The notes beneath the pieces are model-generated. The model saw only the letters and a program-made list of their open reading frames with translations. It had not been told where the DNA came from and did not search any database. From a virus, in IMG/VR virus record IMGVR_UViG_3300048839_001569, positions 1-48,004 of that record: a stretch of 48,004 nucleotides of DNA. The stretch is one strand, 5' to 3'. A program made the position numbers and the translations under genes. Below are positions 6,193 to 48,004 of this stretch, one piece after another (within the stretch, counting starts at the first letter, position 1; the number at the start of each line of letters is the position of its first letter).

Positions 6193-9100
6193 ATGGCATC
6201 AAAAACGACATTGTCAGACTACAGGTTTTCAATCTTTATCAACAACGACCAGGCAAAGCGATCGCTGGTCGAGATGGAAAAGGTAATGCAGGGTTACGAG
6301 GCCGAGCTCTCTAAGCTCGTAAGGGAAAAGAAAAAGGATACCGATGAATATCGTAACGCCAAAAAGGCCTACGATAATCATCTTGAGGCCATGAAAAAGG
6401 TGCGCCAGGAAGCCGGGCTTCAGGCGTTGTCATTAAAAGAGCTCAAATCGCTTCGGGCCCAGCTCAACAATGAACTGGCCAGGGTAGTCCCAGGATCAGA
6501 GAATTTTAAAAAAATAGGCGTCGAAATTGGCGAGGTAAACAACCGCATTAACCAGCTCCAGAACGGGGCAAAGAATACCGGGCTCTCGTTTGGCAAGCTC
6601 GCTGACGGGTTCAACCGGTACTTTGCCATCGTAGGCGCAGGAATAGCGGCCCTTTCAGGGTTCGCGTTCACCATCAAGGAGATGATCACCGCCCAGGGAG
6701 AGCTGGACGACAGCCTGGCAAACATCCGGAAATCGACCGGGATGACAGCCGCCGAAGTTCAGAAACTCAACAGCGAGCTAGGAAAGATCAATACCCGTAC
6801 ATCGAGACAGGAGCTGCGCGAGATGGCCGTTGTGGCCGGACAGATCGGGGTGGCAAAGGATGATGTATTTGCCTTCGTTGAATCGGTGGACAAACTCAAC
6901 GTCGCCCTGGGCGATGAGTTTACCGGTGGCGCCGAAGAGGTTGCCAAGCAGATGGGCATGATGCGAAACGTGCTCACCGATATGAAGACCGGAAATATTG
7001 CCGACGACATGATGCGCCTGGGTAATGCCATCAATACCCTGGGCGCGGCAGGTTTTGCCACCGGCCCGGTGATGGCCGACTTTGCCAGCCGTATCGGCGG
7101 CATTGGCATCAGCCTTGGATTAAGTTCCGATGAAGTGCTTGGCCTTTCAGCCACTCTTCAGGAACTTAATGTCAATGCCGAACGGGGCGGTACTGCCGTG
7201 GTGAAGATACTCCAGAAGATGACCACCAACACCGACACCTTTGCCAAAATCGCCGGAGTTCCACTGCAGGAGTTTACCGACCTTGTAAATACCGATCTGT
7301 ACGGGGCCTTCATGAAGGTAATCGAGGGCTCCAATAAAGGAGGTACCAGCGCCACCGCGCTGGCGGGTATTATCAAAGAGCTGGAGATATCGGGTGTGGG
7401 CGCTTCTGAAATCTTCGCGAAACTTGGCAACAATACCGACATGGTTGCCGAAAAGGTAGGCATGGCCGGAAAAGCCCTGCAGGGAACGGATTCGATAATG
7501 AAGGAATTCGACATTAAAAATGCTACCCTGGGCGCCACTATGGATAAGCTCCGCAAGGACTTCTACAATCTGATCACCCTGCCGGGAGTAACTGAGTTTT
7601 TTAAGAACCAGGTCTATCATGTCGTGCAATTAGTCAACTGGTTGAAGGATCTTCCTCTGATCATCGAGAAATACAAGATCGCGCTGATTGCCATCGCGGG
7701 TGCTACCGGCGTATGGATAGCGGCATCAACCAGGTCGATGCAGATAGCCGTGCTGAATAATCTTTTATTGAAGGAAGGCATTGGGTTAAAAATTAAACAA
7801 GCCATTGCCACTTTACGTGCAGCATCAGCCCAGGAAATATTTAACAAGGTTCTAAAGGCAAATCCTTTAGGTATTATTATCACTGCAATTACAACCCTTA
7901 TCGGGCTTATTGCAGCATACGATAAATACAACTCCAAAGCGCTGGCCACTGAACGCATGAAAGCAAGCGCAACCGTTTTGCTTGCAAATGCAAATAATAA
8001 ACTTGAGCAATCTTACAGCCAGCTCCAGAAGCAAGTCAGTGCGATGAATACATTGTCGCAGCAAGAAAAGGTTAATCTTCAGGAGACTTTAGACCTTAAA
8101 ATTAAAAATGCCGAAGCTGATCTTATTGCGGCAAAGGCAAGAAGGGATGCAATTGGCAAACAAGCCGGATCAACAATTACGACCTGGCAAGGCATCAAGG
8201 CGGCTTTCTCAGCCCCAGGAGCTGATGAGAACAGAAAAGTTACTGATTACTACAAATGGGAAAACGCGAAAGAGGCCACAGAACCATTTAATGACGGGAT
8301 CAACCAGATGCAACAATCCCTGGAGAAGCTCAAGGCAATGAAATCGGAAATCTTAAGCGTCGTCAATGCTGAGAGCGCTGCAGATAAAATTGTCGCGAAA
8401 ACCCAGGAAGCCCTTACCGAAAAACTTTCGAAATACCAGACCGCGCTTCGCAACACCACTGCAGGCAGTGAGGAATACAGCCGCATCCAGGGCAAAATCA
8501 AGGAAACCAATAAGGAGCTGGCGAAGTTCAATTCAGATCAATCGGAGCCTGATAAGGTGAAGAAGCTGAAGACGGAGTATGAGAAACTTGGCGATGCTAT
8601 TAAGGAGCTCACTGATCAGCTTCAGTCGGAGGTTAGCAAAAACCCTGAAAAAGCTGCTGCCATTGCTAAGGAAATAACCTCCCTGCAAAAACAAAAGAAA
8701 GCTATTGATGATCTTGTGACATCATACTTAAACCTCAATAACCAGGAAGAGATCATTGTTAAGCAGGGCTTTGAGGCTTTTTCATCAAATTATGATGAGA
8801 TTTTTAAATTCAGGAAAGAAGCAGGTATTGTTACGGCCAACGAGATTGCCTCATACGAAATCTACAAGCTCAAGCAAACAACGGCATGGGCTTTGGCGAA
8901 TGAAAAAGATCGTGCCGCGGCAATAAAAAAAATCAGGGAAGATGCCGGGTTAACCGTTTTGCCAGACGGAGAATCAATTGAAGAATGGACCCCTGATAAT
9001 TACGCTGGCAATAAAAAGAAGGAAGATGAAGAGCAGGGGGAAGCTTTGGGTAAGGCCGGAGGCATTGGAGCAAAAGTAGGCCAATGGGCTGAAAAGGCTA

Positions 9101-30526: not shown

Positions 30527-31246
30527 ATGAAAATCGAAATAGCGCCAGCAACAGGAAGACCAGAACCACAATTCACGGTCATAGCAGAATCACAAATCGA
30601 AAAGTTGATTCTGAAAACTTTTATCGATATAAAACAGGATTCAAAGAGCGAGCTGCAGTTTCATCTGCATGGTTCTTGCAGGTCCCAGGATAACAGCGGG
30701 ATCACCTCTTTCAACTTTGGATGGATAGTTAAATCAGATGTGCAATATATTGCACCGGCTGAAGCTGATCAGGAGCCTCCGGTCACCGCTTCCGTCATTG
30801 ATACCGATCCGGAACCGGATGCTGCTTACAGTCGCATAGTTCCGGAGGCTCATCCACCATCCAGCCTTGACCGCAGGCGTGATCATGGTACTGCTACCTG
30901 CCTGAATCCAGAATGTGGCAGAACATTCACCAGGAAACGTGAGGATCAGAAATGCTGCAATTCAAGTTGCCGTGCAAGATATCAGACAAAGAAGTACCGG
31001 AGTGAAAAGAAACACCAGAACGTAAAGAGAGAAGAACCACAAGCGCCGGAGGAACCTGATCCGGCGCCTGACCCTATGTACTTCGATAATCCTGCTATCG
31101 AAACCGGTGAAGTTCCGGAGGATTGCATGCCAGACCTTGTAGAAGCAACGCCGGAACCGGTTTCTGACCAATCTAAAGAGCAAGTTCCACCCTGGTATCG
31201 GAAACGATTCAATATTCATACAGGCTTCAGGGAAGAGCATTTCTGA
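30527..31246 (+). CDS. Zinc-finger phage protein
   Basis: 239 residues. Residues about 124-148 carry a four-cysteine finger (CLNPECGRTFTRKREDQKCC, then NSSCRARYQ). It is flanked by acidic, proline-rich disordered segments (EADQEPPVTASV; EEPQAPEEPDPAPDPM). The N-terminal 75 residues look like a small folded domain. It sits between the early antirepressor and the first late promoter-like element, so it could be a late-gene regulator or replication factor. That is inference; only the finger is directly visible. Confidence 0.55.
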   Translation: MKIEIAPATGRPEPQFTVIAESQIEKLILKTFIDIKQDSKSELQFHLHGSCRSQDNSGITSFNFGWIVKSDVQYIAPAEADQEPPVTASVIDTDPEPDAAYSRIVPEAHPPSSLDRRRDHGTATCLNPECGRTFTRKREDQKCCNSSCRARYQTKKYRSEKKHQNVKREEPQAPEEPDPAPDPMYFDNPAIETGEVPEDCMPDLVEATPEPVSDQSKEQVPPWYRKRFNIHTGFREEHF

Positions 31247-41285: not shown

Positions 41286-41603
41286 ATGAAAACGTTCGAA
41301 AAACACTACATCGGAAAAGGAAAACAGGTCGAAGGCCTGCAAATCGCAAAGGTCACCTGCAAACTGGATGACATCCTGAAGCATACCCACGAATTCAAAG
41401 GCGATGTTTACATCTGCTTCGAAGTTGCCAAGATGCTCAACACCGACAGATTTGGTAATGATTTCACGGTCTATGTCAACAAGTTGGTGGAAAAAGCCGA
41501 CCCGCCGAAAAATGAAAAACCCGCCACCAAGGCAGCGATGAAACCGAAAAAGGAGACCACGAAAAAAGCAAAGGACAAGAACGACGAGGAGATCCCCTTC
41601 TAG
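41286..41603 (+). CDS. Small phage protein with acidic-basic tail
   Basis: 105 residues. It begins MKTFEKHYIGKGKQVEGLQI and has a small folded region (AKVTCKLDDILKHTHEFKGD) up to about residue 70, then a low-complexity Lys/Pro/Glu tail ending DEEIPF. The DEEIPF-like acidic end resembles the C-terminal tips of SSB-type proteins that recruit partners, and the front resembles small conserved proteins of Bacteroidota mobile elements. A single-strand DNA or replication accessory role is plausible but unproven. A terminator follows. Confidence 0.6.
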   Translation: MKTFEKHYIGKGKQVEGLQIAKVTCKLDDILKHTHEFKGDVYICFEVAKMLNTDRFGNDFTVYVNKLVEKADPPKNEKPATKAAMKPKKETTKKAKDKNDEEIPF

Positions 41604-41609
41604 GGACAG

Positions 41610-41634
41610 AGCCGGTGAAAACCGGCTTTTTTTT
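41610..41634 (+). terminator. Intrinsic terminator
   Basis: AGCCGGT (41610-41616), GAAA tetraloop, ACCGGCT (41621-41627), then 8 T counted from the last stem base. It lies 7 nt after the 105-residue gene. Confidence 0.85.
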
Positions 41635-41760
41635 GTTCGTTCACGGTAGTGTTTATAAATCCTGGACGGATTGTTCAAAATTATTGGCAAAAATGGCTTC
41701 ACTTTTCAATGTTTCCCCGATTAACCAGCAAAAGCACATCAAAGAGTGACTGAATTTTAG

Positions 41761-41791
41761 CAAAGGTACCTACGGAAAATAAAACGGTCAA
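41761..41791 (-). promoter_or_regulatory. Leftward Bacteroidota-type promoter
   Basis: On the minus strand TTGACC begins at 41791 and TACCTTTG lies at 41768-41761, 20 nt after TTG. It points away from radC toward the terminator at 41634. No leftward gene is visible, so a short antisense or small RNA is the only product I can suggest. Confidence 0.45.
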
Positions 41792-41857
41792 GGGCGCCGG
41801 TGGCGCCTTTCAGGTTCTTTCACCCCGCCTTCGGCGGGATGACCCTAACCCTTGACC
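41786..41857 (+). ncRNA. Three-way-junction RNA/inverted-repeat element upstream of radC
   Basis: The outer arms GGTCAAGGG (41786-41794) and CCCTTGACC (41849-41857) pair perfectly. Inside are two hairpins: GGCGCC-GGT-GGCGCC and CCCGCC-TTC-GGCGGG. It could be an RNA of the radC leader or a mobile palindromic repeat. The left arm also contains the -33 box of the leftward promoter. Confidence 0.55.
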
Positions 41858-41881
41858 TAATTTATTTCTCCCCGGTGTGGC

Positions 41882-41908
41882 TGATGGCAAAAATTCAGTA
41901 CTAACCGC
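41882..41908 (+). repeat. Leader motif shared by two intergenic regions, copy 1
   Basis: TGATGGCAAAAATT, then ACTAACCG at 41900-41907, before radC (ATG 41938). A near copy (TAATGGCATAAATT, then ACTAACCG) lies at 47309-47333 before another gene. The spacing differs by 1 nt. Confidence 0.45.
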
Positions 41909-41937
41909 GGCCAAACGGCTGCATAAAACTATCAGCT

Positions 41938-42663
41938 ATGGAAACATTATCAAAGATCAACGAATCGCTGACTTACCAGGGTGGACTTCCCATGAGCGCA
42001 TGGGCAGAGGATGACATCCCAAGCAACAAAATGCTGCTCAAGGGAACCAATAGCCTTTCAAACGCTGAACTGCTCAGTATTATCATCGGCAGCGGGATCG
42101 ACGGGGAAAACTCCCTGGACATTGCCATGAGGGTACTTTCATCCTGCGGCAATAATCTCTGCGAATTCTGGAAGCTGGGGATTAACGAACTGAAACAGAT
42201 CAGGGGCATCGGTGAAAAACGTGCCCTGCAGATCGTTTCATTGTTCGCCCTGGCAGGCAGAAGGATCGAAAGCGAAGCAATGCAACGGGAGAAGATCAAA
42301 TCCAGCCGGGATGCCTTTCAACTGCTGCGCACTTCAATGAGCGATATCCCTTACGAAGAGTTCTGGGTCCTGATGCTCAACAAAGCCAACAGAGTGCTCA
42401 GAAAAGTTAAAATTTCAGAAGGAGGCATCTCCGGAACGGTGGTTGACCCGAAAAGAGTCTTCAAAAGCGCCCTTGATCATCATGCGGCAGCAATTATCCT
42501 TGGGCACAACCACCCATCTGGATTGCTTACACCCAGCGAAGCTGACCTGAAGCTTACAAAAAGGCTGGTCGAAGCCGGCAGGTTGATGGAGATCGCAGTG
42601 CTGGATCACATCATCGTTGGCAGTGATCAGTACTATTCATTTGCTGATGAAGGGACGCTTTGA
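41938..42663 (+). CDS. radC: RadC-family JAB/MPN protein
   Basis: 241 residues. It has an N-terminal helix-hairpin-helix (LKQIRGIGEKRALQIVSLFA, about 83-102) and a C-terminal JAMM metal site: Glu in YEEFWVLMLN, then HNHPSGLLTPSEAD (His about 190, 192, Ser 194, Asp 203). RadC proteins carry this fold widely on phages and mobile elements; their biochemical role is still poorly defined, and a link to recombination or stress on replication is often suggested. A terminator follows immediately, so it is its own transcription unit. It is a cargo gene, not needed for virion structure. Confidence 0.88.
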   Translation: METLSKINESLTYQGGLPMSAWAEDDIPSNKMLLKGTNSLSNAELLSIIIGSGIDGENSLDIAMRVLSSCGNNLCEFWKLGINELKQIRGIGEKRALQIVSLFALAGRRIESEAMQREKIKSSRDAFQLLRTSMSDIPYEEFWVLMLNKANRVLRKVKISEGGISGTVVDPKRVFKSALDHHAAAIILGHNHPSGLLTPSEADLKLTKRLVEAGRLMEIAVLDHIIVGSDQYYSFADEGTL

Positions 42664-42667
42664 GGTG

Positions 42668-42694
42668 AGCCCCGGGAAACCGGGGCTTTTTTTT
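42668..42694 (+). terminator. Intrinsic terminator after radC
   Basis: AGCCCCGG (42668-42675), GAAA, CCGGGGCT (42680-42687), then a run of 8 T counted from the last stem base. It insulates the next cassette from upstream transcription. Confidence 0.9.
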
Positions 42695-42723
42695 CTTAGC
42701 TGTTCAAAAATAACATTAAAATA

Positions 42724-42755
42724 TTTGTGTAATATCATATATGATATTATATTTG
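42724..42755 (+). promoter_or_regulatory. Operator-controlled promoter of the IbrAB-like cassette
   Basis: TTTG at 42724-42727 and TATATTTG at 42748-42755 form a Bacteroidota promoter with a 20-nt spacer. A perfect palindrome TAATATCATATATGATATTA (42730-42749) fills the spacer and reaches into the -7 box. A dimeric repressor bound there would block RNA polymerase. The XRE protein encoded last in the cassette is the likely binder. Confidence 0.72.
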
Positions 42756-42808
42756 TTGAATAATCAATAACCCTGGCGGCAACAGGAAAACAATGCGGCA
42801 GATAAACA

Positions 42809-43192
42809 ATGACAACAAATCAAATCTTCGAAGCAAACCAGGTACTTACCCTGGCGATTGCCAAAAAACTCATTGGAAAAGTAATTGCGATCACAAATTG
42901 TGAGTATAAAGGCAACCGTCCTTCAGTAAGGAAATTCAAACTCACTGCTATTATCAGCGAATATGAGGTGGCTCGGCAAACTAAGGTTACAGGCTATGAA
43001 TCTCAGGCAGATTATTGGGAAAAGATGGTCCCGGAGGCTGTAAAAAGAGGTAAAAGCCACATGGTGCTTATTGGTGAAGGTGACAAGCCATATGCTACAT
43101 GCAGAGTTGTTGGTGGCTATTACCCTGAACCTACTTTCCATGGCTCAGATGAGGATCGTGAAATCTATTATCTGGTCTGTGATGATAATTAA
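42809..43192 (+). CDS. First cassette protein, unknown
   Basis: 127 residues, about 53 nt downstream of the cassette's promoter. It has a helical N terminus (QIFEANQVLTLAIAKKLIGK) and a beta-rich rest (HMVLIGEGDKPYATCRVVGG), ending FHGSDEDREIYYLVCDDN. The pattern suggests a compact binding domain. No family is recognised. It overlaps the next gene by 11 nt. Confidence 0.5.
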   Translation: MTTNQIFEANQVLTLAIAKKLIGKVIAITNCEYKGNRPSVRKFKLTAIISEYEVARQTKVTGYESQADYWEKMVPEAVKRGKSHMVLIGEGDKPYATCRVVGGYYPEPTFHGSDEDREIYYLVCDDN

Positions 43193-43511
43193 GTGCTATT
43201 CTGTACGCCTGAAAAGCCTTGTCAGCATATCCGACAGGGCTTTAAAGGCGACGGCTTTTGATGGGTCAGAGGCTATTATCCCCAAAAGTCAGGTTATTGG
43301 ACCAGACCTTGACGTGGTTAAGGCAGAAGCATACTGGATTACTGCTTGGATACTTGAGAAAAAAAAATTACAGTATTCAACGAAAAAGCAAGGTCTGTTC
43401 AACCTTTCGAAAAGGAAGGTTATTGTAAAGAATGATATTAAAATTGAAATTCACATACCAAAAAAAATTAATCCTTTAGAAAACAATATCATTGATCAAT
43501 TAAAAAAGTAA
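43182..43511 (+). CDS. Second cassette protein, unknown
   Basis: 109 residues from ATG 43182, inside the end of the previous gene; a longer frame would overlap it much more. It begins with a strand-rich part (KCYSVRLKSLVSISDRALKA) and continues to a basic C terminus (NLSKRKVIVKNDIKIEIHIP). The first half faintly resembles the start of a SNF2-associated or RNA-binding beta domain, but I cannot name it. A+T content rises here. Confidence 0.45.
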   Translation: MIIKCYSVRLKSLVSISDRALKATAFDGSEAIIPKSQVIGPDLDVVKAEAYWITAWILEKKKLQYSTKKQGLFNLSKRKVIVKNDIKIEIHIPKKINPLENNIIDQLKK

Positions 43512-43516
43512 CTACT

Positions 43517-43789
43517 ATGGAAAAATTAACAAAAATCGAAAGCCTTGAGTTAGCAAAAAAAGTAGCAAATCATTTTTTTGACTTGGGTTATAATGAACGG
43601 GAATTATTAGAGATGGACAAGCATGAGTTGTCTGTAAAAATGGATAATCCGGCAATTTCAAACATGCCTGACAGAGTGTCTATGTATGATGGACATGATA
43701 TTGAAGAGGAGGATACATTTGACTATTTTCAAACACTTGTAAAATTTGAATATGTTATTAGAAGAAGAAAAAGCGAGATTACTTCCTGA
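43517..43789 (+). CDS. Third cassette protein, unknown
   Basis: 90 residues, helical and acidic (SLELAKKVANHFFDLGYNER; DMEEEDTFDYF-like segment near residue 65). Its 3' end overlaps the ATPase gene by 38 nt, so it probably is co-translated. No motif is recognised. A small partner or regulator of the ATPase is plausible by position. Confidence 0.45.
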   Translation: MEKLTKIESLELAKKVANHFFDLGYNERELLEMDKHELSVKMDNPAISNMPDRVSMYDGHDIEEEDTFDYFQTLVKFEYVIRRRKSEITS

Positions 43790-44987
43790 CCAGGTAAATG
43801 CAAAAGGGCACCTATCAGATTGGAAGGTGGGTGCCCTTTTCATGGAAGCCGGAACAGGAAAAACAAGGATAGCAGTGGAAATCGCAAATGAAACAAATTG
43901 CGATTTAATTGTATGGATAGGCCCATTGCAGACTCTTCGACAAAAGTTTAACGAATCAACCGTAATACATGAAATCGAGCGTTGGGGAGGGTTCAATGCA
44001 AATGTGATTTACACTGGGATAGAGAGTTTGCAAAGTTCAGACAGAATTTACATGAATTTGCGAAACAGCATTATTTCTGCATTAAATCCCATGATCATCG
44101 TTGATGAAAGCTTGAAAATTAAAAATGCAGATGCTAAAAGAACAAAACGATTGTTGGAATTGTCAAATCATGCAAAATATAAGCTAATCCTAAATGGAAC
44201 CCCTATTACAAGAAATCTCTTGGATTTAAAAACCCAAATGGATTTCCTTTCGTGCAGTATTTTAAATATGAGCGATACAGAGTATAAAAATACCTTCTGC
44301 AAATACATGAGGGTAACAAAATACTTTGGAGGTAACAAAAGGTACACAAAGGAATTTATTACTGGCTTTGAAAACATTGATTATTTGTACAGTTTAATAA
44401 GACATTATGTCTTTGAGTGTGATCTTAATCTATCAGTTAGTCAGATGTACGCTACAATCAGATATGCTATTTCAGATGACCTACTTGATGAATATCAAAG
44501 GTTAAAAGAAAAGTATTTGGATGATGAAATGATGCAGTGGAGAAATAACAATATATTTCTTGAATTAACTCAAAAGATGCAGCACATATATTGCTGTACT
44601 GACGATAAATTTTTAGCATGTGAAAATCTGTTCAAAGAAATTGATCAGGAGCGCACAATCATTTTTTGTAAGTTTATAAAAAGCAGAATAGAATGTGAAA
44701 AGAGATTTCCCAAGGCAACAGTTCTCAGCTACCAAAAGGAATCGTTTGGACTTAATTTACAGCATCTTTCAAATACGATTTACTTCGATAAAAATTGGGA
44801 TTATGCACTGAGAATTCAAAGCGGAAGACGGACATTCAGGACCGGTCAAGAGTATAATTGCAGGTATTTTGATCTTACCGGAAATGTAGGACTTGAGCTG
44901 TTGATAGATGCTAATATAAAAAAGAAGACAAGTATGGCTGAATACTTTAAGGGAAAAACAAAAACAGATTTAAAGAAAGTATTATGA
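43752..44987 (+). CDS. Compact SNF2-type helicase-like ATPase
   Basis: 411 residues from ATG 43752. SNF2 proteins move along or remodel DNA using ATP. Motif I is MEAGTGKT (31-38), motif II is DESLKIKN (Asp118-Glu119-Ser120 in place of DEAH), motif III is LNGTPITRN, motif V-like is SFGLNLQHLSNTIYFD, and motif VI is QSGRRTFRTGQ (about 354-364). It lacks extra N- or C-terminal domains and is about half the usual size. It overlaps the upstream gene and is ATGA-coupled to the PP-loop gene. The region is A+T-rich compared with the structural genes. Confidence 0.8.
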   Translation: MLLEEEKARLLPDQVNAKGHLSDWKVGALFMEAGTGKTRIAVEIANETNCDLIVWIGPLQTLRQKFNESTVIHEIERWGGFNANVIYTGIESLQSSDRIYMNLRNSIISALNPMIIVDESLKIKNADAKRTKRLLELSNHAKYKLILNGTPITRNLLDLKTQMDFLSCSILNMSDTEYKNTFCKYMRVTKYFGGNKRYTKEFITGFENIDYLYSLIRHYVFECDLNLSVSQMYATIRYAISDDLLDEYQRLKEKYLDDEMMQWRNNNIFLELTQKMQHIYCCTDDKFLACENLFKEIDQERTIIFCKFIKSRIECEKRFPKATVLSYQKESFGLNLQHLSNTIYFDKNWDYALRIQSGRRTFRTGQEYNCRYFDLTGNVGLELLIDANIKKKTSMAEYFKGKTKTDLKKVL

Positions 44988-46258
44988 ATGTTTATGAGGC
45001 CGCCCAGAAGAGATTACGCTTTATATTCTCAGAGTTTGACAACATCTATGTGTCATTTTCAGGAGGAAAAGATAGTGGTGTGCTGCTGAACCTTTGCATC
45101 GATTACATCCGAAATCACAGCCTGAATGTAAAACTTGGAGTCTTTCACATGGATTACGAGGCCCAGTACCGCATGACAACAGACTATGTGAATGATACTT
45201 TGAGCCAAAATGTAGATATGATTGATGTTTTCCGGTGCTGTGTTCCGTTCAAGGTGCCAACCTGTACATCCATGCACCAGGATCACTGGCGTCCATGGGA
45301 GGAGTCAAAGCGTGACATTTGGGTTTCTGATATTCCCGAAAAGTGTTTTCAGCGTGATGATTTCCCGTTTTTCCGTGACAATATGTGGGATTACGAGTTT
45401 CAGGAGAAGTTTAGCCAGTGGCTTCATGAACGCAACCACGCCGGAAGGACCGCCTGCCTGGTCGGCATCCGCACCCAGGAATCCTTGAACCGGTGGCGTG
45501 CCATACACAGCGACCGGAATTACCGCAACTACAATGGTCTGAACTGGACCAAGGAGGTATTCACTAATGTTTTCAACGCCTATCCGATCTATGACTGGCT
45601 CACCACCGACGTATGGACCGCTAACGCACGTTTTGGATGGTCATACAACAGACTATACGATCTCTATCACCGGGCAGGCGTACCGCTGGAGAAGCAGCGG
45701 GTGGCCAGCCCATTTCTTTCGGCAGCGCAGGACAGCCTGAAGCTCTACCGGGTGATCGAACCAGATACCTGGGGTAAGCTCGTAAGCCGGGTGAACGGGG
45801 TAAACTTCACTGGTATCTACGGCGGGACCACTGCCATGGGGTGGAACTCCATTAAGTTGCCTTCCGGGCATACCTGGGAAAGCTATATGCACTTCCTACT
45901 TTCCACGCTGCCTGAAGATACCCGGGCCAACTACTTGGATAAATTATCCGTATCTATTCGATTCTGGAGAGAAAAGGGCGGGTGCCTGTCAGCGCATACT
46001 ATTGAAAAGCTAAAAGCGTCAGGAGTAAAGTTTGAAACAGCAAAGGATACGAATTACAAGACATCGAAGATCCCAGTAAGAATGGAATACATTGATGAGA
46101 TTGACATCGCTGAAGCGAAGGAAATACCGACATTCAAGCGAATGTGTATCTGCATCATGAAGAACGACCATCTATGCAAGTATATGGGATTTTCGCTTAA
46201 CAAAAACGAAATGGCTCGAAGGAAGAATATTATGGAAAAATATAAAGCATTGCTATGA
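44984..46258 (+). CDS. ibrA-like: IbrA-like PP-loop protein (PAPS-reductase family, DUF3440)
   Basis: 424 residues. The PP-loop SGGKDSGV (Ser26-Asp30 and on) binds ATP as in PAPS reductases, TilS and ThiI. Further segments fit the DUF3440/IbrA group: LVGIRTQESLNRWRAI and NRLYDLYHRAGVPLEKQRVA, the long C-terminal domain with SGHTWESYMHFLLSTLP, and a late cluster of cysteines (FKRMCICIMKNDHLCK). IbrA was named as a regulator of immunoglobulin-binding proteins in E. coli; its enzymatic reaction is unknown. It resembles DndC in fold. The 5' half differs in base composition from the A+T-rich ATPase gene. Confidence 0.82.
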   Translation: MNVYEAAQKRLRFIFSEFDNIYVSFSGGKDSGVLLNLCIDYIRNHSLNVKLGVFHMDYEAQYRMTTDYVNDTLSQNVDMIDVFRCCVPFKVPTCTSMHQDHWRPWEESKRDIWVSDIPEKCFQRDDFPFFRDNMWDYEFQEKFSQWLHERNHAGRTACLVGIRTQESLNRWRAIHSDRNYRNYNGLNWTKEVFTNVFNAYPIYDWLTTDVWTANARFGWSYNRLYDLYHRAGVPLEKQRVASPFLSAAQDSLKLYRVIEPDTWGKLVSRVNGVNFTGIYGGTTAMGWNSIKLPSGHTWESYMHFLLSTLPEDTRANYLDKLSVSIRFWREKGGCLSAHTIEKLKASGVKFETAKDTNYKTSKIPVRMEYIDEIDIAEAKEIPTFKRMCICIMKNDHLCKYMGFSLNKNEMARRKNIMEKYKALL

Positions 46259-46758
46259 ACAGTCCAGTTTACAACGTCAGGGCGGTACCCCTGGAGAAAA
46301 TCAGGGCCAACAGCTATAATCCGAATGCTGTGGCCCCACCCGAAATGAAGCTGCTGGAAAAATCGATCCTGGAGGATGGCTATACCATGCCGATCGTGTG
46401 CTATTACTTGCCGGATGAAGACCTCTACGAAATCGTGGATGGCTTTCATCGATACACGGTGATGAAGAACAACCTGGTGATAAGGGATAGAGAGAATGGC
46501 TTGATGCCGGTCGTCGTAATTGAAAAAGATATCACCAACAGGATGGCTTCTACCATCCGGCACAACCGTGCACGCGGATCACACGACATCGACCTGATGA
46601 GCAGCATCGTTTCGGAACTCACCAAGGCAGGAATGTCGGACGCCTGGATCATGAAAAACATTGGTATGGATGCAGATGAACTATTACGGCTTAAGCAAAT
46701 CACTGGCCTCGCAGAACTTTTTAAAGATAAAGAATTTTCAAAATCGGTTGAATTATGA
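46255..46758 (+). CDS. ibrB-like: IbrB-like ParB/Srx-fold protein
   Basis: 167 residues. The ParB-type catalytic or binding core includes IRANSYNPN (about 16-24), LEKSILEDGYTMPIV, and the signature VDGFHRYTV (about 61-69), which corresponds to the GERR or DGQHR box of ParB and DndB families. The C terminus is a helical HTH-like part (AGMSDAWIMKNIGMDADELL, then RLKQITGLAEL). ATGA overlaps link it to the IbrA-like gene and the XRE gene. The pair IbrA-IbrB is a known neighbourhood in prophages. Confidence 0.82.
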   Translation: MNSPVYNVRAVPLEKIRANSYNPNAVAPPEMKLLEKSILEDGYTMPIVCYYLPDEDLYEIVDGFHRYTVMKNNLVIRDRENGLMPVVVIEKDITNRMASTIRHNRARGSHDIDLMSSIVSELTKAGMSDAWIMKNIGMDADELLRLKQITGLAELFKDKEFSKSVEL

Positions 46759-47039
46759 ATGACCCTGTTATTATTGAAGCAAGGCGGATGCTACTTGCAT
46801 ATTTAAACGAATTGGCAAAAGAAAAAAAATTGAGCACTTATAAAATTGCCGAAATGACTGGTATTACGCAGTCAAACGTCTATAGAATTCTAAACGGGAG
46901 ATACCCACCAACGCTTGATACGTTTTTATTGCTGTGCCAAAAGTTAGACTGCTATATTTTTATAGTAGATAAAAATGCTGAAGACGACCTGGTAGATAAA
47001 ATGAAACAAAGATGGCGACGATCATTTGATGAATCTTGA
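46755..47039 (+). CDS. XRE-family HTH regulator of the cassette
   Basis: 94 residues. A helix-turn-helix of the XRE type is visible at about 22-60 (LSTYKIAEMTGITQSNVYRI, then LNGRYPPTLDTFLLLCQKL). It is coupled by ATGA to the IbrB-like gene and is the last gene before the terminator. An autorepressor that binds the palindrome at 42730-42749 is the simplest reading. The gene is A+T-rich. Confidence 0.75.
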   Translation: MNDPVIIEARRMLLAYLNELAKEKKLSTYKIAEMTGITQSNVYRILNGRYPPTLDTFLLLCQKLDCYIFIVDKNAEDDLVDKMKQRWRRSFDES

Positions 47040-47089
47040 TCATGCCAATTCATTATCTGACTAAGTTGAATATCTGATTTCATAATCGG

Positions 47090-47116
47090 GGTCCTGGGAA
47101 ACCGGGACCTTTTTTT
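47090..47116 (+). terminator. Intrinsic terminator of the cassette
   Basis: GGTCCTGG (47090-47097), GAAA, CCGGGACC (47102-47109) with one G-U pair, then 7 T. It closes the IbrAB-like unit. Confidence 0.85.
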
Positions 47117-47153
47117 ATTCTCGTAAGGTGGGCCGGTTATAAAAAATTTATAG

Positions 47154-47881: not shown

Positions 47882-48004
47882 ATGGATGTAGCAGAAACCA
47901 TCGATCTCTTTGCGGCCATTAAGCAGATGAGGGAAATATCCCAGCAAGGGGGTTTTTTCTCTTTCGGCCATGCCACGTATAACCGTGACACCGACCGGTG
48001 CGAC
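47882..48004 (+). CDS. 5' end of a phage protein cut by the right edge
   Basis: 41 codons from ATG 47882 (MDVAETIDLFAAIKQMREIS, then QQGGFFSFGHATYNRDTD) with the frame still open at the window end. It follows a leaderless-type late promoter. The N-terminal helix followed by SFGHATYNR fits the same small protein family that the left-edge gene completes. On a circular map it would lie immediately before the portal gene. A single gene split by the edges is likely but not proven. Confidence 0.7.
   Translation, partial: MDVAETIDLFAAIKQMREISQQGGFFSFGHATYNRDTDRCD

Follow-up and report, generated by a model that had tools for sequence, protein, structure and literature searches.

A phage accessory operon joining a compact SNF2-type ATPase to tail-bearing small proteins: a candidate counter-defence system built on a motor and exchangeable adaptors

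Viral homologues of Cas proteins act as anti-CRISPRs, and AcrIB4, for example, resembles the C-terminus of Cas8b, according to the passage of PMC13131331 that cites Katz 2024; AcrIIA5 of Streptococcus phage D4276 has been proven by experiment to inhibit Cas9 (PMC6060171). IbrAB activates eib genes, as the title of Sandt 2002 states (cited in PMC10763512 and PMC10434257). The present analysis concerns a stretch of viral DNA of 48,004 bases (G000, IMG/VR record IMGVR_UViG_3300048839_001569), referred to as a whole as the window, which codes for an integrase, a phage repressor, a primase and a tape measure protein and is therefore regarded as a temperate tailed phage. At 42.69–47.12 kb lies a mobile phage accessory operon, a cassette of seven genes encoding A127, B109, C90, a compact SNF2-type ATPase, IbrA, IbrB and an XRE protein. 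The best reading of this cassette is that of a counter-defence operon made up of a motor and its adaptors, a reading to which we give close to even confidence.

In this reading, a minimal SNF2 ATPase would be served in trans by small proteins coded just upstream, whose common C-terminal tail would act as a docking peptide for the SNF2 protein and whose unrelated N-terminal bodies would each bind a different target; B109 is the only tail-bearing adaptor in the window. A Cas11c-like mimic, found in relatives, should enter type I-C Cascade, and the SNF2 motor would then use the energy of ATP to remodel the complex bound on DNA or strip it off. IbrA (an ATP-pyrophosphatase/adenylating fold) and IbrB (a ParB/Srx fold) travel with the motor, presumably as a second pair of enzymes that is separable from it. 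Counter-defence in the course of infection is the most likely function, and the machine is probably of a previously undescribed kind, the assembled system being new and each enzyme coming from a known family; no study of the cassette was found in the open-access literature on IbrA/IbrB, on DUF3440 or on PAPS reductase together with ParB and SNF2. A more elaborate version, in which a modular, retargetable machine uses interchangeable tail adaptors to load SNF2 on immune complexes and evict them from phage DNA, with IbrA/IbrB as coupled modifiers, is possible but doubtful.

The central evidence is a tail of about 22 residues (xxxHxPEKxxPxxxNxIxeLKR) that ends B109 and also forms the ending of various small proteins encoded 5' of SNF2. 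A profile made from B109 tails alone was applied to the C-terminal ends of 45,173 open reading frames (ORFs) and at E<1 retrieved 46 other unique proteins, all encoded at most 2 kb upstream of SNF2, in a region that makes up 6% of the sequence, except for one chance-level ORF and two L124 duplicates on the cut contig L318 (a known cassette). Similarly, a degenerate pattern of the tail at the DNA level matched 6 contigs among 2.9 million viral contigs, all of them cassettes. At least one tail protein (one to three) is present in 95 of 113 distinct SNF2 cassettes, most of the remaining 18 being of Firmicutes type with a shorter ending, EVxxxLKR, and none of the 101 IbrA loci without SNF2 contains a tail protein, bar that same chance-level ORF. 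Since the tail accompanies SNF2 and not IbrA/IbrB, the SNF2 protein is taken as its likely partner. Moreover, the tail is conserved as a peptide and not as DNA, because the codons at its invariant residues vary freely (leucine, for instance, is written TTA, CTT, CTG or TTG). An artefact of DNA or ribosome coupling was considered and discarded, as codon usage varies and tails are also present on genes not adjoining SNF2. Without their tails, the bodies group into seven BLAST families, only two of which are related to each other by HHalign; for the B109 model (predicted local distance difference test score 85.6), no PDB entry matches at better than E 0.6, and BFVD yields only weak matches, to uncharacterised proteins of phages. 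The shared tail and the diversity of the adaptors are the distinctive features of the cassette and had been overlooked in a sequence-only reading, a model's earlier annotation of the window; that reading had singled out the DES of SNF2 motif II, which is near-invariant in the family, with the Asp-Glu pair kept.

One body family is homologous to the C-terminal domain of Cas8c/Csd1 (Pfam E=1.4e-9, above the cut-off; PADLOC Cas8c 7e-10), a part already described as the type I-C small subunit Cas11c. This Cas11c-like family occurs in 13 cassettes of the viral contigs, bears the tail in 12 of them, and is encoded between B109 and SNF2 wherever both are visible. At each of the three loci that lack SNF2, two of which are near-identical, an HTH domain replaces the tail, and the same replacement is found in the L206 copy located downstream of SNF2 (7190-7669); the body stays constant while its C-terminus changes by context, which constitutes a natural control. 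As an observation in their own right, the XRE/HTH-fused Cas11c-like domains in phages (L347, L348, L349, L206 7190-7669) are candidate autoregulated anti-CRISPRs. In addition, acrIIA5 stands directly upstream of the adaptor-SNF2-IbrA-IbrB series in five streptococcal loci (D4276, CHPC877, CHPC1062, L322, L323). The sequence-only reading had listed the blocking of host defence among the possible functions of the cassette, which is supported indirectly by the presence of acrIIA5 and of Cas11c-like genes in this operon in relatives. Elsewhere, a protein of 170–192 residues ending in WGYKPEGSLRVSDHWNFGENGEHCPT...HLIKKF (or near) replaces acrIIA5 (L325, L326, L327, L328, L302 3825-4337); encoded ahead of adaptor and SNF2 in further phages of Streptococcus type, it is a candidate anti-CRISPR.

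An IbrA search of viral contigs yielded 207 relatives, the best 80 of which serve for the locus counts: IbrB is found in 79/80, SNF2 in 58/80, B109 in 41–48/80, and XRE relatives close to IbrA in 17–34/80. A B109 search gave 71 further loci, with SNF2 and IbrA both present in 66 and the rest mostly at contig ends. The association of SNF2, IbrA and IbrB, for which a co-occurrence check had been proposed, thus recurs, and its recurring core is B109–SNF2–IbrA–IbrB (genes 2, 4, 5 and 6), with the 4-nt overlaps at the SNF2>IbrA and IbrA>IbrB junctions kept in most loci. Between SNF2 and IbrA, the pairwise identities show only a moderate correlation (r=0.51, 57 loci), and the two halves are therefore partly reshuffled. 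The cassette is present in the annotated Streptococcus phages D4276, CHPC877, CHPC1062 and Pika, in Lactobacillus phage phiAQ113 and, in a differing gene order, in Fusobacterium phage phiFN37, where the IbrA-ParB-tail-like protein-SNF2 series (L299, 7.8-12.5 kb) adjoins genes for a second ParB-like protein, a TGT-like protein and a transporter of queuosine precursors, which may together make up a set for 7-deazaguanine modification of DNA. Three leading unknown proteins had been emphasised; B109 is indeed conserved, but A127 and C90 are not widely so, and the trio thus resolves into one conserved protein and two accessory ORFs. A127 is scarce, with BLASTP relatives in 2/80 IbrA loci (6/80 by clustering) and no family match in profile searches, and C90 has neither a family match above noise nor relatives among the 80 IbrA loci. 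A conserved protein of 67–68 residues (MKxFNLxxAKxGxxVxTKxGK...) lies between SNF2 and IbrA in L008, L013, L015, L043, L059, L074 and L075.

In the window, the unit and its edges are laid out as follows:

42667..42688, + strand: intrinsic terminator of the upstream RadC-like gene (9-bp GC stem and T run), left edge of the inserted unit
42710..42745, + strand: sigma-70-like promoter, two overlapping 9/12 consensus matches
42730..42749, no strand: 20-bp perfect palindrome TAATATCATATATGATATTA covering the -10 region; a candidate operator for the XRE protein
42809..43192, + strand: A127 (gene 1), accessory ORF
43182..43511, + strand: B109 (gene 2), ATG at 43182, candidate adaptor bearing the tail (phrog_5809, E=5e-42)
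43443..43508, + strand: C-terminal tail of B109, IEIHIPKKINPLENNIIDQLKK (alignment and tail profile)
43517..43789, + strand: C90 (gene 3), doubtful or accessory ORF without a tail, filling the variable slot between B109 and SNF2
43755..44987, + strand: compact SNF2-type ATPase (gene 4), ATG start, with a TTG at 43746 (PF00176 2e-10; phrog_62 5e-59)
44984..46258, + strand: IbrA (gene 5), PAPS-reductase-like PP-loop (SGGKDSG) enzyme with DUF3440 (PF11922 3e-91; PF01507 9e-12)
46255..46758, + strand: IbrB (gene 6), ParB/Srx fold with a VDGFHR box (ParB_N 3e-6; phrog_2159 1e-77)
46755..47039, + strand: XRE/HTH_26 protein (gene 7), candidate autorepressor of the cassette (HTH_26 5e-9)
47088..47111, + strand: intrinsic terminator (10-bp stem and T run), right edge of the unit

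The seven genes, two strong terminators and promoter described by the sequence-only reading are all present, the promoter by consensus match only. Its account of overlapping genes also holds, but the number of junctions overlapping by at least 4 nt is five of six and not four: the seven ORFs are joined, in order, by an 11-nt overlap, a 5-nt gap and overlaps of about 35, 4, 4 and 4 nt. The palindrome at 42730-42749 is the longest perfect one in the window (local P about 0.001 by Markov shuffle; a 16-bp perfect palindrome, GTGCAATATATTGCAC, lies at 30740-30755), and the proposed switch of XRE protein and operator is plausible from the sequence, the XRE protein probably binding the palindrome and repressing the promoter that contains it. 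Two relatives found via terminase, L309 and L310, are without the cassette; their match to the window ends at 42661, the end of the RadC-like gene, and restarts at 47143. The cassette is therefore a discrete insertion, so that the unit described as self-contained is also mobile, and its core recurs in dozens of phages besides, which argues against a chance assemblage. Regarding the surroundings, L309/L310 hold a 105-aa gene and the RadC-like gene in reversed order relative to window 41286-42663. Furthermore, adjacent homologues in L309/L310 match the cut ORF at the window end (47884-48004) and the gene at 143 (143-1531), and the window record therefore looks circularly permuted or terminally redundant.

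The SNF2 protein of about 410 residues has complete motor motifs and no accessory domain. Motifs I, II (DESLKIKN), III (LNGTP), V (GLNLQ) and VI (RRTFRTGQ) are recognised, the alignment columns GKT, DE, NGTP, NLQ and R..G are invariant or near-invariant, the protein qualifies by its motor motifs as an SNF2-family ATPase, and the nearest solved structure is the SSO Snf2/Rad54 core (1z63, E=3e-25). A DUF3440 PP-loop protein followed by a ParB-fold protein identifies the next two genes as an IbrA/IbrB pair. The AlphaFold model of IbrA matches the folds of PAPS reductase (CysH), ATP sulfurylase (CysD) and FAD synthase, and within the family SGGKDSG is invariant, as is one cysteine (C388), two others being nearly so; on the strength of these fold matches and residues, IbrA is likely an adenylating enzyme, and a DndC-like sulfur transferase is unsupported. 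IbrB carries VDGFHR, not GERR, when aligned to Noc, ParB and SerK. ParABS partition was rejected for IbrB, which lacks the GERR CTP box, and no ParA is coded in the cassette; a SerK/SbnI-like free serine kinase was likewise rejected, since the position of its catalytic Glu30 is taken by Asn24/Ala25, despite the VDGxHR-like box. Marine-type phages contain IbrA/IbrB without SNF2, and the pair is found in other company too, which makes it a separable module. For instance, in 74 of 80 bacterial genome loci (mostly Bacteroidales; L218-L297) a conserved protein of about 140 residues precedes IbrA-IbrB, forming a cellular three-gene operon; its fold is perhaps GNAT-like, with no firm Pfam or PHROGs match for this gene beside chromosomal IbrA/IbrB, and Mom-like modification was dropped, profiles having given no match to Mu Mom. 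A protein of about 147 residues (AWIGQAAC...LSDEQ) is common in IbrA/IbrB-only phages (L020 3711-4154, L300 7543-7941), and a look-alike adjoins the IbrA/ParB pair of Mycobacterium phage Gaia.

Several points weigh against the motor with exchangeable adaptors. The shorter Firmicutes ending is not scored by the profile and was recognised by eye only; the HHalign comparison used small alignments, and a short [IW]xPKS-like motif is common to B109 and two other families, so that some of the bodies may be distant homologues. Binding of the tail to SNF2 is proposed from patterns of co-occurrence in sequences, and the adjacency of AcrIIA5 may reflect nothing more than the grouping of genes in an accessory locus. 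The window itself contains neither a Cas11c-like nor an Acr gene, both being found in relatives, and the loci counted are not phylogenetically independent. At the same time, IbrA/IbrB occur without SNF2, and the motor model consequently leaves their role unexplained.

Among the alternatives, DNA modification would have IbrA adenylate and then sulfurate or otherwise modify phage DNA, IbrB pick the sites and SNF2 expose the DNA, allowing escape from restriction. The DndC-like PP-loop fold of IbrA (weak PADLOC and NCBIfam matches), a weak resemblance of SNF2 to DpdE, and the phiFN37 arrangement, in which IbrA-ParB-small protein-SNF2 lies near a ParB, TGT and queuosine-transporter set, all argue for it, together with the VDGFHR box of IbrB, which we take to resemble the DGQHR/Srx class. 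Nevertheless, this explanation is unlikely: no cysteine desulfurase, DndD or DndE was recognised among the cassette proteins or recurrent neighbours, IbrA has one invariant cysteine only, and the shared tail, the Cas11c-like adaptors and the AcrIIA5 neighbours are left unexplained. The DndC-type pathway invoked in the earlier annotation is accordingly not supported, as the cysteine set is absent and the PADLOC DndC match (4e-6) covers 80 residues only; a host desulfurase could substitute for DndA. Similarly, TGT (DpdA) is found neither in the window cassette nor among recurrent neighbours, and nearby in phiFN37 only, so that the cassette belongs by composition to neither the Dnd nor the Dpd systems.

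A helper in replication or transcription, in which SNF2 would clear phage DNA of proteins or RNA polymerase and IbrA/IbrB would act as gene activators, would agree with the likeness of the SNF2 core to Rad54 and to chromatin and RNA polymerase remodelers, and with the Sandt 2002 title on activation of prophage eib genes in E. coli ECOR-9. Yet the cassette occupies accessory spots (RadC to portal in the window, lysis genes to cro in streptococcal phages) and not replication modules, and it is cleanly lost in L309/L310; we consider such a role quite improbable. Alternatively, a prophage might use the cassette for defence or superinfection exclusion directed at other phages, with the tail adaptors as sensors, which would suit a self-contained operon that encodes its own repressor in a temperate phage and the similarity of SNF2 to ZorD. 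This is the case given least credence, given that the cassette also occurs in D4276 (PMC6060171) and other phages described as virulent, is co-located with an anti-CRISPR, and has no recognised nuclease or toxin effector in its core; a PADLOC 2.0 scan of the cassette found no known defence system, only generic motor, PP-loop and HTH matches.

If the motor-and-adaptor reading is true, counter-defence would be driven by ATP, in contrast to the inhibitors surveyed in PMC13131331, which act stoichiometrically or as enzymes, and DUF3440/IbrA-IbrB, unexplained since 2002, would gain a testable setting. Moreover, if the tail is a docking tag, each small protein bearing it would be a candidate binder of a host complex, and the tail would thereby become a search tool for new anti-defence proteins.

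Compared with described systems, the cassette shares with E. coli IbrA/IbrB the same two families (DUF3440 and ParB), adjacent and phage-borne (PhiR5_2), whereas the E. coli phage pair is without SNF2 and tail proteins. As in Dnd (DndABCDE), a PP-loop enzyme stands beside a ParB-superfamily protein; unlike Dnd, the cassette is without DndA, DndD, DndE and the Dnd-type cysteine set and has an SNF2 motor instead. The Dpd 7-deazaguanine system similarly unites ParB-like (DpdB) and SNF2-like (DpdE) proteins in one cluster, but the likeness of the cassette SNF2 to DpdE is confined to generic motor motifs. With the SNF2/Rad54-family motors (the SSO Snf2 core, Rad54 and Mot1/RapA-like strippers) it has in common the full motor motifs and, as proposed, the removal of proteins from DNA; the difference is that the cassette SNF2 lacks an accessory domain, such parts apparently being coded separately with a docking tail. 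AcrIIA5 is itself part of the streptococcal versions of the operon and, like the Cas-derived anti-CRISPRs, is a small phage protein; homology to a Cas subunit is found in the relatives, not in the window. Finally, in relation to AcrIB3 and AcrIB4 (Katz 2024), the Cas11c-like member corresponds, for type I-C, to AcrIB4, and it departs from these Cas-derived anti-CRISPRs in that its Cas-like domain is tagged with the tail that unrelated proteins also bear and is encoded beside an SNF2 motor and IbrA/IbrB.

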